Part shown: piece after piece, positions 1 through 44,307 of the stretch
How positions within the stretch are numbered: position 1 is the stretch's first letter
Layout: every line of letters begins with the position of its first letter
From: a bacterium
GTDB lineage: Bacteria; Cyanobacteriota; Vampirovibrionia; Gastranaerophilales; Gastranaerophilaceae
NCBI GenBank assembly: GCA_017471365.1
Contig: JAFUUC010000106.1
Span: 1 to 44,307 of the forward strand
DNA length: 44,307 bases
Direction: 5' to 3'
Made by a program: the position numbers and the translations under genes
The notes under the pieces: model-generated
Seen by the model: the letters and a program-made list of their open reading frames with translations, nothing else
What the model was told of the DNA's origin: nothing
Database searches by the model: none

Positions 1-544
1 AATCCACTACATCTACTGTTTTTTCTTCATCGTCAGCAAAATATTTGATCTCATTGTACGGTATACATTCTTTGAATGCTGAATTAGTACCGTCGCAGAT
101 CTTTGTAATCTTCATGTACTTAGATAATTCTTCTGCAAATTCAGCGGTACTACTGTAGGTGTTGTTGATACCGCCATGCAAGTCGAGCATGTTAAGTCCT
201 TGAATAAGCTTAGCTTCGGTGACTTTCTTTTGATTACCGTCGACTTTTTCGTTCACTTTTGCGATCAGTGTTGGCAGAGTTAATGCTGCGACTACGCCGA
301 TAATTGCAAGGGTGATTAATACTTCGGCTAAAGTAAAGGCTGCCTTACCCCTAACGGGGACGGCACCCACCCTAGCCCTCCCTCGAAGGGAGGAAGTTTT
401 TTCAGTGGTGGTGTGTTTGCCCCTTGCGGGGAACAGACCCACCCTTAGTCCCTCCATAGCTAGGGAGGGAAGTTTTCCCGTGATTTCTTCATTTACCCCC
501 GTAGTACACTCTGCTAAAGTAAATGCTTGTTTAAAATTTTTCAT
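1..544 (-). CDS. Prepilin-like protein, 5' part only (runs off the window start)
   Basis: The start codon is ATG at 544, preceded by a good ribosome binding site (GGAGG, about 549-553). About 181 codons are visible and the 3' end lies outside the window. Residues 8-12 read FTLAE but are not followed by a hydrophobic stretch. A second AFTLAE at 69-74 leads directly into VLITLAIIGVVAALTLPTLI, a typical class III prepilin/pseudopilin helix. The ~57 residues between are encoded by GC-rich palindromic repeats. After the helix the sequence is nearly identical to the complete paralogue at 29605-30948 (shared KVNEKVDGNQKK and CDGTNSAF stretches). The residue before the second FTLAE is Ala, not the usual Gly, so cleavage by prepilin peptidase is uncertain. 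Likely an exported pilin-like surface protein. An XRE regulator (694-1011) is divergently transcribed. Confidence 0.8.
   Translation of the reverse strand, partial: MKNFKQAFTLAECTTGVNEEITGKLPSLAMEGLRVGLFPARGKHTTTEKTSSLRGRARVGAVPVRGKAAFTLAEVLITLAIIGVVAALTLPTLIAKVNEKVDGNQKKVTEAKLIQGLNMLDLHGGINNTYSSTAEFAEELSKYMKITKICDGTNSAFKECIPYNEIKYFADDEEKTVDVVD
342..500 (-). repeat. Two tandem GC-rich palindromic repeats inside the prepilin coding region
   Basis: Two related units lie in tandem. One has a near-perfect 20-nt palindrome at 450-469 (CCCTCC-ATAGCTA-GGGAGGG on the plus strand). The other has arms CCTCCCT 377-383 and AGGGAGG 387-393. Each is followed on the coding strand by an AGGGTGGGT-type box and then a second small hairpin of the CCCCG(C/T)(A/T)AGGGG kind. 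The same unit lies in the prepilin at 29605-30948 and between genes at 43631-43665. The segment is in frame and free of stops on the coding strand. Its G+C content contrasts with the AT-rich neighbourhood. Confidence 0.8.
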
Positions 545-693
545 AATTACCTCCATATTCATGTGCTATATCAATTGTTGCCAATATTTATATTGTAACG
601 CATTAATAATACTAATGCAATACATCAACTATTAAATAAATTGTTGATATGCCATATTCTTAATAATACAGAGTAAGAAGACATAATTGACAT

Positions 694-9119: not shown

Positions 9120-9532
9120 TTGTAATAGATCATTCCGCCCCTGGTATAACTTTTTTGAGTTCTTGGTTGAAAATTTTTATTAAATCTGGAATTAGAATTG
9201 TTTACATTAACAATGTTCACATTTGTTGCAGGAACGTTTCCGATCAGCATCTGTCCCCCTACAGGAGGCATTGGTGGTCTGTTACCTCTTGGTTGAGCAA
9301 AGTGATTACGTGCAAAATTATTCCCACTATAAGGGCGAGCAAAATTATTGCTTCTGTATCCATAACCGCGGTTCATGCGACTAAGTTCTAATGTTTGTGT
9401 TGACATTCTTGGTCCGGCTCCATGTTGAACATAAATAGGCACTCCGGTGTTTTGATACGTAATAATCGTAGATGCATTCGCACCTAAGCCTGTGAACACA
9501 ACGATTCCCAATAAAAGCAAAAACTTTTTCAT
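9116..9532 (-). CDS. Small secreted Asn/Arg-rich protein, unknown
   Basis: 138 residues. The N-terminus MKKFLLLLGIVVFTGLGANA is a clear Sec signal peptide with a likely cut after ANA. The mature part is low in complexity, rich in Asn, Arg, Gly and Pro (NNFARPYSGNNFARNHFAQP, later NVNIVNVNNSNS), and has no cysteine or recognisable fold. It is basic, so it may associate with the cell wall, nucleic acid or a polyanion, but no function can be assigned. Its stop overlaps the nrdG stop (TTAA shared). It lies downstream of pgeF on the same strand, with a hairpin between. Confidence 0.7.
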   Translation of the reverse strand: MKKFLLLLGIVVFTGLGANASTIITYQNTGVPIYVQHGAGPRMSTQTLELSRMNRGYGYRSNNFARPYSGNNFARNHFAQPRGNRPPMPPVGGQMLIGNVPATNVNIVNVNNSNSRFNKNFQPRTQKSYTRGGMIYYN

Positions 9533-9585
9533 ACAGTAACCCTTTTACTTTTCCTACTTATATTAATATAATAACATTTTTTTAG

Positions 9586-9615
9586 AAAATATTGCTACAA
9601 CCATAGTAATATTTT
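9586..9615 (-). terminator. Hairpin between pgeF and the small secreted protein gene
   Basis: Arms AAAATATTGCTA (9586-9597) and TAGTAATATTTT (9604-9615) pair over 12 positions with one G-U. The minus strand continues with T-rich sequence. It is a weak, AT-rich terminator candidate for pgeF. Confidence 0.4.
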
Positions 9616-9655
9616 TACTTTTCTTAATATCGTTGCTATAATAAGTTCTTAGGAA

Positions 9656-10354
9656 TTATGCAAGTTTTAAAACGGCGTTATGCCTGTTAGTTGTACCATT
9701 TTCTTTTCGATATGAGAAAAAATAATTATTGTCACAACTCGTGCAATAAGGGCAGATATCGATATTTTTGACTCCTAATTCTCTAATTTGTTGACTGTTT
9801 ATACTTTTCAAATCGACAAAAAAATTATTATCTGAAATTTTATATAAATTATTAAAATTTTTTACTGTGATTTTTAATTTTTCAAAAACTTCTTCTCCAA
9901 CATTATAGCAGCATGAAGATATTGCAGGTCCTATCAAAGCAGTGACATTTTCAGGCTTTGTATTAAAATCTTCAATCATTTTTTGGATTGTTTTAGGTGC
10001 AATTTTTTTAACACTACCACGCCATCCGGCATGGCAAATAGCTCCTATATTTTGTTTTGTATCGTAGAGAATTATTGGAGTACAATCTGCAAAGTTCAGA
10101 AAAATCGCATATTCCGGAATTGTTAGAATTAAGGCATCAGTGTTCGGATAATTGAATTTATTTTTCTCTACTATTTGAATGTTGCCACTATGAGTTTGCT
10201 GTGGATAAATAAGTTTTTTTACTCCTAAATAGTTAATAATAAGTTGTTCATTTTCATTTATTGCACTTTCGCGTGTTGTAAAAAAGGCATTTGCATTTTG
10301 AATCATATCTGATCTAAGGATTTTTTTCTTATTTATATTTTCAAAATAGAACAT
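9656..10354 (-). CDS. pgeF: Laccase-domain purine nucleoside phosphorylase / peptidoglycan editing factor family
   Basis: 232 residues of the YfiH/PgeF family (old name multicopper polyphenol oxidase). Members show purine nucleoside phosphorylase or adenosine deaminase activity, and E. coli PgeF edits peptidoglycan precursors. The family blocks are all present: QTHSGNI, NFADCTPIILYD, ICHAGWRGSVKKI (the conserved Cys-His pair of the active site), GPAISSCCYNVGEEV and CPYCTSC...FFSYRKENGTTNRH near the end. Length is normal. The start ATG at 10354 lacks a strong Shine-Dalgarno. It is divergent from the gene at 10464. Confidence 0.92.
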   Translation of the reverse strand: MFYFENINKKKILRSDMIQNANAFFTTRESAINENEQLIINYLGVKKLIYPQQTHSGNIQIVEKNKFNYPNTDALILTIPEYAIFLNFADCTPIILYDTKQNIGAICHAGWRGSVKKIAPKTIQKMIEDFNTKPENVTALIGPAISSCCYNVGEEVFEKLKITVKNFNNLYKISDNNFFVDLKSINSQQIRELGVKNIDICPYCTSCDNNYFFSYRKENGTTNRHNAVLKLA

Positions 10355-29604: not shown

Positions 29605-30948
29605 ATGACAGAAAAGATTATCAGTAAATCAGGATTTACCCTCGCAGAGGGTGCTACGGGGGTAAATAAAGAATGTAGGTTGGGGTTACTACCCCATAAG
29701 TTTCCCTTCCTAGCTAGGAAGGGTCAGGGTGGGTCTGTTCCCGTTAGGGGCAAACACATCACCATTGAGACAATCCCCTCTCTCTTTGTGAGAGGGAGCC
29801 AGCGTTGGCGAGCTGGCGAGACTTACGCTGGCGGGAGAGGGTTTAAGAAAGCAGCATTTACTTTGGCAGAGGTCCTTATCACCCTTGCAATCATCGGTGT
29901 AGTCGCAGCACTCACTCTGCCAACATTGATCGCAAAAGTGAATGAAAAAGTCGACGGCAACCAAAAGAAAGTCACCGAAGCAAAATTAATTCAAGGCTTG
30001 AATATGCTCGACTTGCATGGCGGAATCAACAATACCTATTCATCAACCGCAGAATTTGTAGAAGAATTGAGCAAGTACATGAAGATTACAAAGATCTGCG
30101 ACGGTACTAATTCAGCTTTTAGTGAATGTATCCCGTATAGTGAAATAACATACAATAACGGTACAGAAGATAAAACTGTTGAAATTACTAAATTAAACAC
30201 AGCAGATGTACTAGGACTGGGAACAGTAACTGATGAAGAAGAATTTATGGCACCTGTTGCAATGGTACTAGCTGACGGAACACCAATGTTTCTTACTTAT
30301 AATAAAAAATGTATATCAGATCCTGATAGTATAAAGTCTGATAATAAGAAAATTCATAGTTGTGTAGACGGGCTGTATGACTTAAATGGCAGCCGCATGC
30401 CAAATAGAGTGGGAAAAGATTTGACTGCCATGAACAAAGCTTCAATTAATATTGCTGAGGGACCTGCTGTCTTAGCAACGATAGCCGGTTACAATATTAT
30501 TAAACAAACAGACGGACTAACATATCCACCGGCAATGGATTGTTCAACTTACTTAGGAAATTCTAAGTATCCGGAAATTACTCACTGCCCATACTTAGGA
30601 GAACAAGACTACTGGGTAGGAGCGGTAGTAACATGTAGAGACATGGGAGGTCATTTACCTGATATGACAGAGCTGGCAGACATAGCTAAAGTTATCTATC
30701 CTAATGTAACAAGTGGCGAAGCCATAGACAAATATTCAGGCTGGAGCAACGGCAGTTGGAATACTACAGAAGCAGCAAAACTGGGCATTGACCCTTCTTC
30801 TGTTTCGTGGTTCACCCTGTGGTCGTCAGAGGGGAGCTCGGGCAGTAGCTCTCGCCGCCGCTACTTCAGCAGTGGTGACACGTACGGTAATATCTACGAC
30901 AATCGCAGTAGCTTTATAGTCAGGTTTGTTTGCCTGGCGGATAACTAG
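29605..30948 (+). CDS. Prepilin-like protein with duplicated FTLAE motif and lectin-like variable tail (447 aa)
   Basis: ATG 29605 follows TAGGAG. A class III prepilin motif occurs twice: SGFTLAE (11-15 for FTLAE) without a following hydrophobic helix, and AAFTLAEVLITLAIIGVVAALTL (FTLAE 85-89), a complete pilin/pseudopilin helix. Residues 16-84 come from GC-rich palindromic repeats. The body (~105-300) is shared with the partial copy at 1-544. The last ~130 residues (DYWVGAVVTCRDMGGHLPDMTELA...WSSEG...VRFVCLADN) resemble a C-type-lectin-like fold and match the gene at the right edge. Probably displayed on the cell surface through a type II/IV assembly system. Ala precedes the second motif, so processing is uncertain. 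Confidence 0.85.
   Translation: MTEKIISKSGFTLAEGATGVNKECRLGLLPHKFPFLARKGQGGSVPVRGKHITIETIPSLFVRGSQRWRAGETYAGGRGFKKAAFTLAEVLITLAIIGVVAALTLPTLIAKVNEKVDGNQKKVTEAKLIQGLNMLDLHGGINNTYSSTAEFVEELSKYMKITKICDGTNSAFSECIPYSEITYNNGTEDKTVEITKLNTADVLGLGTVTDEEEFMAPVAMVLADGTPMFLTYNKKCISDPDSIKSDNKKIHSCVDGLYDLNGSRMPNRVGKDLTAMNKASINIAEGPAVLATIAGYNIIKQTDGLTYPPAMDCSTYLGNSKYPEITHCPYLGEQDYWVGAVVTCRDMGGHLPDMTELADIAKVIYPNVTSGEAIDKYSGWSNGSWNTTEAAKLGIDPSSVSWFTLWSSEGSSGSSSRRRYFSSGDTYGNIYDNRSSFIVRFVCLADN
29650..29850 (+). repeat. GC-rich palindromic repeats within the prepilin gene
   Basis: At least three hairpin units lie in frame: TGGGGT/ACCCCA (about 29683-29698); the 20-nt palindrome CCCTTCCTAGCTAGGAAGGG (29704-29723) followed by AGGGTGGGTCTGTTCCCGTTAGGGG; and a CCCTCTCTC...GAGAGGG / GCCAGCGT...ACGCTGGC block (about 29784-29840). 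The middle unit is the same family as at 450-469 and 43631-43650. The preceding CTACGGGGGTAAAT segment is shared with the left-edge prepilin. Confidence 0.8.
30811..30930 (+). other. Candidate hypervariable (DGR-type) region at the prepilin 3' end
   Basis: By hand count 53 of 90 bases at 30811-30900 are G or C, far above the gene body. Of 25 codons from 30841 to 30915, 15 end in C and 9 in T (GGC, AGC, CGC, TAC, TTC, GAC, ATC and so on), although the rest of the gene prefers A/T endings. This is what adenine mutagenesis of AAC/AAT codons would leave. The encoded stretch ends in an invariant-looking FVC before the stop, like other lectin-fold variable regions. No template repeat or reverse transcriptase is in the window, so this is a hypothesis. 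Confidence 0.5.
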
Positions 30949-43594: not shown

Positions 43595-43650
43595 ACCCTG
43601 AAATAAATTCAGGGTGACAGGCAAAAATTTCCCTCCCTAGCTAGGGAGGG
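43595..43650. repeat. Intergenic palindromic repeats
   Basis: ACCCTGAA (43595-43602) pairs with TTCAGGGT (43608-43615). Then comes a perfect 20-nt palindrome CCCTCCCTAGCTAGGGAGGG (43631-43650), followed by ATTAAGGGTGGGTGG. The second palindrome is the same element found in frame inside the prepilin genes at 450-469 and 29704-29723; here it is outside any gene. Confidence 0.85.
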
Positions 43651-43686
43651 ATTAAGGGTGGGTGGTTTAATATTGCAAATAGGTCA

Positions 43687-43736: not shown

Positions 43737-44307
43737 CTAGCCTCCTACGCAAACAACGCGGAAATCGTTGGTACTGCGGAAGTCGTTGTTCCAGTCCGTG
43801 TACGAACTGTTGAAGTAACGGTACCACGCAGACTTCGAGGTGTACTCGAGGTCACCCCAAAGGTCGAAATCCCTAGCGGAATCTTCTATGCCCAGTTTGG
43901 CTGTTACGCTCTTATCCCACTCGTTTGCAGTTGGGTCTGTTTCATTGTAATCTTCTGACTCGCTGATTGAATTGTCGTTGTAGATTGCCTGAGCTATTTT
44001 TGCCAGTTCACTTGCTTTTGGTAATCTGCCGCCTTGGTTCTTACACTCTACCATTGCTCCTACCCAGTAGTCATTGCTGTTATTGTAGTAGCAGCTTTTG
44101 ATTGCTTCGTAGCCGGATTTTCCAATGTAGTCACTACAACTTACAGGTGTTGGAACTTTTGCCTGGCTAATTATCTTCACTCCACCTATCTCTATATAAG
44201 AATCTTCAAGTTTTGCTCCATTAAATGAAATAAGGTCATTTCTTGTGTGTTCATCGCCACCGTAAAGATTTGGTTTTCTGGAGCCGTTGAAGTCATATAT
44301 ACCCGCT
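43737..44307 (-). CDS. Prepilin-family protein, 3' part only (runs off the window end)
   Basis: The open frame enters at the window edge and ends at TAG 43737-43739, giving ~189 residues. Its early part (GIYDFNGSRKPNLYG) matches GLYDLNGSRMPN in the complete prepilin at 29605-30948. The C-terminal ~140 residues match the same protein's lectin-like domain (NDYWVGAMVECKNQGGRLPK and the final RYFNSSYTDW...DFRVVCVGG). The conserved Cys pair and WVGA...GG.LP...ELA.IA pattern suggest a C-type-lectin-like fold. The N-terminal prepilin region lies outside, so the assignment rests on homology. The tail is GC-rich and varied. Confidence 0.8.
   Translation of the reverse strand, partial: AGIYDFNGSRKPNLYGGDEHTRNDLISFNGAKLEDSYIEIGGVKIISQAKVPTPVSCSDYIGKSGYEAIKSCYYNNSNDYWVGAMVECKNQGGRLPKASELAKIAQAIYNDNSISESEDYNETDPTANEWDKSVTAKLGIEDSARDFDLWGDLEYTSKSAWYRYFNSSYTDWNNDFRSTNDFRVVCVGG
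43740..43860 (-). other. Candidate hypervariable (DGR-type) region of the right-edge gene
   Basis: 64 of the 120 bases at 43741-43860 are G or C by hand count. In the 22-codon stretch from TAC CGT to TTC CGC, 15 codons end in C (TAC, AAC, GAC, TTC, CGC, ACC). Against the paralogue's tail, many differences keep the final C and change only codon positions 1-2: AAC/AGC, TAC/GAC, AAC/ATC, ACC/AGC, TTC/GAC. TAC TTC, AGT, ACG, CGC AGT and GTT TGC are shared. Confidence 0.5.

Follow-up and report, generated by a model that had tools for sequence, protein, structure and literature searches.

The window, by which is meant the whole 44,307-nucleotide stretch analysed here, carries two prepilin-like genes whose 3' tails share many codons and differ elsewhere mostly in bases other than the third. 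Are these tails variable regions (VRs) of a diversity-generating retroelement (DGR) and, if so, where do the templates and the rest of the machinery reside? The evidence assembled below very probably places the right-edge tail among the VRs of a cellular, multi-target DGR working in trans. That assignment rests on template, VR, adenine bias, bAvd, and fold; the assembly holds no reverse transcriptase (RT), and mutagenic homing is inferred.

Two Tails in One Window

The features on which the argument draws are as follows.

43740-43871, minus strand: VR-B, the variable region at the C-terminus of the prepilin paralogue on the right edge, placed by ungapped alignment to its template TR-B (contig C36, same genome)
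43737-44306, minus strand: 3' portion of a B-type prepilin-like gene truncated where the contig ends (stop codon 43737-43739); its product shares 40% identity with the C-terminal domain encoded by gene 29605-30948
30796-30945, plus strand: VR-A, the variable region of an A-type prepilin, with one indel relative to its template TR-A (contig C101)
29605-30948, plus strand: A-type prepilin-like gene with an N_methyl motif (Pfam) and a C-terminal C-type-lectin-like domain (predicted fold)
2-562, minus strand: N-terminal portion of one more prepilin paralogue, the third, situated at the contig's left edge, matching C4:8-532 at 78% identity, without a VR inside the window
29690-29740 and 43620-43670, and 9360-9720 of another stretch (L126): GC-rich intergenic repeats

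The window thus contains one member of each main family, A (left tail) and B (right-edge gene). The N_methyl motif (PF07963) occupies residues 81-104 of the protein encoded at 29605-30948 (Pfam, E = 1.4e-5); the N-terminus of the right-edge gene lies outside the window. The codon comparison with 30811-30948 made in the initial annotation was reproduced: TAC TTC, AGT, ACG, CGC AGT, and GTT TGC are identical between the tails, and differing NNC codons retain their third base, far above chance.

Both contig edges (2-562 and 43737-44306) are prepilin paralogues, as are those of many other contigs in this genome; the assembly breaks there because the prepilin family is itself the repeat. Short GC-rich intergenic repeats (CCCTCCCTAGTCAGGGAGGG...GGGTGGGTGG) are dispersed beside the templates and prepilin genes, here and there in tandem. 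The prepilin frame at 29605-29850 starts MTEKIISKSGFTLAEG, continues with about 70 codons of intergenic-type repeat, and then presents a second AAFTLAEVLIT; as its 5' part is common to other paralogues, an ancestral gene seemingly acquired the repeat within its signal region.

Two Intergenic Templates and a Shared Leader

The initial annotation had advised a search for a template with AAC repeats. Codon tables were compiled for each family, in which variable codons take all bases at positions 1 and 2, usually with adenine prominent, and are confined to C or T at the third; expected templates were written from these columns only and then searched against the genome. The search succeeded twice, each time at an intergenic AAC-rich locus. 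The best match to the predicted A template is a stretch that is not a gene (C101:30231-30361, 95% identity), followed downstream by a 113-residue protein with bAvd (P0003; PF22296, E = 1.6e-12, above the curated cut-off) and then by secA. The predicted B template matched C36:518-645 (97%), which stands alone between the contig end and rpoB, upstream of the latter. Both templates and bAvd are intact.

The two tails had been proposed to be fed by the same or related templates. They do belong to one DGR system, but not to a single shared template: the left tail stems from TR-A and the right from TR-B. The non-matching GGT/TCG and GGT/TGG codons, for which that proposal suggested different templates or older divergence, are indeed of the former kind, being fixed differences between TR-A (AGT GGT AAC ACG AAC GGT) and TR-B (AGT TCG AAC ACG GAA TGG).

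Similar 65-nt hairpins precede TR-A and TR-B, starting about 180-240 nt upstream of the template. A promoter-like TTGACC-17-TATCAT sequence immediately precedes the leader of TR-A. A covariance model of this leader, built from eight examples, matched within the genus only in this genome (G000, twice) and in G004, G008, and G064, and only before templates. Among 80 GTDB DGR-RT loci, 24 matched at E <= 1 (E < 0.01 for 21), mostly close behind the Avd gene. In the resulting 24-row alignment, 17 of 20 pairs are changed on both sides, and neither any of 500 shuffles nor any slid register came close, with the caveat that the alignment was fitted to the model. In DGRs of Gastranaerophilales the covarying leader precedes the template, and it recurs more weakly in a few other MAG loci. 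No credible match to it was found in Rfam; the conserved hairpin offers a testable RNA element absent from that collection.

A Family of About 75 Variable Tails

The genome (1.8 Mb, 109 contigs, 96.9% complete) holds 167 matches to gene 29605-30948, many at contig ends. An iterated profile gathered 99 reading frames from 97 stretches of the genome, the window included; the 94 that end in a stop were scored against the templates. Scores above 60 were reached by 75 tails, all distinct and with downstream flanks in 74 clusters, which identifies them as separate loci rather than assembly copies. These approximately 75 prepilin-like genes with VRs form two main families, 51 A-type (...LWSSEE...RFVCLADN) and 24 B-type (...LWGDLE...RVVCVGG). 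The VRs lie at the 3' ends of the target genes and change mostly at first and second codon positions, which meets one criterion for a DGR. The earlier guess of a multi-target DGR is accordingly supported by the VRs of the paralogue family, by two templates, and by bAvd beside one of them, with the reservation that an RT is absent from the assembly. The system appears to be among the largest surface-diversity systems of the DGR kind known.

The variable domain is predicted to adopt a C-type-lectin fold. A structure model from ten sequences reached an overall pLDDT of 61 (moderate), with the C-terminal domain mostly at about 75-80, so the prediction holds at fold level only. The modelled C-terminal domain matches C-type-lectin folds, namely the C-terminal domain of Bd2740 from Bdellovibrio (Z 9.8), intimin (8.3), a mannose-receptor domain (7.5), Lcl (7.2), and the phage DGR protein Mtd (1yu4; 6.1); Foldseek E-values by themselves are weak. 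Pfam gave only weak Lectin_C and Lcl_C matches to the variable domain, and a PDB sequence-profile search gave none. Taken together, the N_methyl motif and the fold suggest a pilin-like stalk whose variable tip resembles a lectin; the function is inferred.

The Missing RT

DGR-type RTs are marked by an IGxxxSQ motif. No RT was detected in this assembly, either by an RVT_1 search or with a DGR-RT profile even at E <= 10, and the same searches detect DGR-type RTs in relatives. Among 46 genomes of the genus, bAvd occurs in five (G000, G004, G008, G064, and, as a short match only, G065), and four of these carry a DGR-type RT of one group (G004, G008, G064, and, as a fragment only, G065), the exception being the present genome. 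G008 has a compact layout; in G004 and G064 the RT lies outside the TR-Avd locus, directly upstream of a VR-bearing prepilin near a contig end, with TR-Avd on another contig. Since the RT adjoins a VR-bearing prepilin in two relatives, and this is the repeat type at which the present assembly breaks, it is inferred that the RT gene most likely exists but fell in an assembly gap. The shortest contigs seen here are about 3.2 kb, from which it may be inferred that an RT flanked by prepilin repeats could have been lost with a dropped short contig. VR numbers are approximately five with one template in G064 and four in G065; with about 75, the present genome is an outlier.

Mutation Pattern and Alternative Explanations

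The right-edge tail differs from TR-B at 16 of 41 template adenines and at 9 of 91 other bases (Fisher p = 1.6e-4), six of those nine lying at the two extreme ends of VR-B; the left tail differs from TR-A at 23/46 adenines and 9/98 other bases (p = 1.3e-7). Across ungapped VRs (31 A-type, 11 B-type), template adenines are mismatched at 49% (A) and 51% (B) and other bases at 9.4% and 8.7%, an odds ratio of 9-11. The templates are hence nearly identical to the VRs except at adenines, another DGR criterion that is met. Codon position 3 receives 63% (A) and 86% (B) of the differences within the conserved domain upstream, vs 12-14% in the genomic tails; substitutions spread evenly over codon positions and bases, the pattern named beforehand as refuting, are thus not seen. 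Within AA, the first adenine is altered more often than the second (69-71% vs 43-50%). Among ungapped VRs, the core shows no mismatch outside template adenines in 10 of the 31 A-type and 2 of the 11 B-type members (A-column mismatches run from 14 to 26 across the set), and for the former such clean cores imply recent writing; many VRs have 3-20 mismatches at other bases, so that writing is not recent in every case. After the VRs, a perfect inverted repeat occurs in 27 of 69, and a general conserved hairpin just downstream was therefore not found; about a dozen of these repeats have GGTGGGG in common and may be terminators.

Were the adhesin tip simply evolving fast under ordinary positive selection, without targeted mutagenesis, the surplus of changes at first and second codon positions would be accounted for. 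This rival leaves unexplained the AAC-rich intergenic templates that match the VRs, the retention of silent third bases, and the saturation of adenine columns at any gene age; as the sole cause it is ruled out by the template matches and retains next to no credibility. Gene conversion among paralogues, as between pilE and pilS in Neisseria, is scarcely more plausible. Many dispersed paralogues are available for such cassette recombination, and the mean run common to A-type VR pairs is slightly raised (3.75 vs 3.35 in shuffles), but the longest common run does not exceed that of column-shuffled controls (8 vs 8.6 for A), leaving no long common tracts, variation is concentrated at template adenine columns, and intergenic AAC templates with bAvd exist.

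A more serious rival, though still an improbable one, holds that the RT was truly lost in this lineage and that the VRs are frozen relics spreading by gene duplication only. It draws support from the lack of an RT in the assembly and from the relative G034 (98% complete), in which 12 VR-like tails with the same footprint are present and neither RT, Avd, leader, nor template was found. Against it stand the intact bAvd and templates, the clean cores of A-type VRs noted above, and the state of the closest gene pairs: divergence at adenine columns is about 53% even where gene bodies differ at just 9% of third positions, and these columns are randomised already in pairs whose bodies barely differ, which points to recent activity. 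An active DGR thus remains the preferred reading. Besides the undetected RT, the non-adenine mismatches of many VRs, and the lack of a general downstream hairpin, two further observations count against it. Template adenines that stand alone are for the most part little changed, possibly through selection or sequence context (the two being indistinguishable here), and near the 3' end a block of A-type VRs (template columns 125-133) likewise departs from TR-A. Searches of IMG/VR and phage records with exact VR cores and with the TR-A locus gave no match, so there is no sign of phage origin.

Proposed Mechanism and Significance

Under the DGR reading, two stand-alone template RNAs, each a leader hairpin followed by TR-A or TR-B, would be reverse-transcribed by a DGR RT with bAvd, misincorporating at template adenines. 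The cDNA would then home to VRs of matching sequence and take the place of the 3' ends of the prepilin-like genes scattered through the genome; TR-A would serve the family marked by ...RFVCLADN, and TR-B the one marked by ...RVVCVGG, to which the right-edge gene belongs. Type IV pilin-like stalks would thereby come to bear a great variety of C-type-lectin tips exposed at the surface, probably serving adhesion, ligand binding, or antigenic variation; that the RT acts in trans, that the tips are displayed on the surface, and what they do are all inferences. The full picture is that of a chromosomally dispersed network: a single detached RT would be guided in trans by two independent leader-hairpin template RNAs and would thus diversify some 75 pilin tips, producing pilus antigenic variation through targeted reverse transcription rather than cassette recombination. 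This picture is favoured, with considerably more reserve than the VR assignment itself.

If correct, it would give uncultured gut and rumen Gastranaerophilales, non-photosynthetic relatives of cyanobacteria, a surface-variation machinery, and would show that templates and RT are separable. Moreover, dozens of VRs per template constitute a natural set for measuring adenine-context bias.

Comparison With Known Systems

Adenine-specific VR variation, a template, an Avd-type accessory protein, and a C-type-lectin variable domain are all shared with the DGR of Bordetella phage BPP-1 (mtd-avd-TR-brt), which, however, serves one target from one template in one cassette, whereas here two stand-alone templates face about 75 targets scattered across the genome, and the RT is not in the same locus. 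Cyanobacterial DGRs likewise diversify remote C-type-lectin variable proteins in trans, but their 121 diversified genes are spread over 21 genomes in total and are mostly predicted to be cytosolic (Vallota-Eastman 2020, PMC7517822), unlike the prepilin-like targets of this one genome. Thiohalocapsa PB-PSB1 resembles the present case in having several DGR loci, degenerate loci without RT, and inferred trans diversification; its nine loci have 15 targets, linked to conflict systems and not pilins (PMC10907252). The published many-target DGRs found therefore reach about 15 targets per genome or 121 over 21 genomes, far below about 75 VRs and two templates in 1.8 Mb. Surveys restricted to the RT neighbourhood miss such systems (Roux 2021, PMC8144416), and the literature searched yielded no paper joining DGRs with Melainabacteria or Gastranaerophilales. 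The DGRs of Gastranaerophilales/Melainabacteria in GTDB genomes (loci L183-L221) have a related RT, bAvd, and the leader hairpin, several with prepilin-like targets and C-type-lectin ends, yet mostly as a compact Avd-TR-RT cassette with few VRs. Relative to known DGRs, what is new here is the unusual number of targets, the split architecture, and the stand-alone templates.
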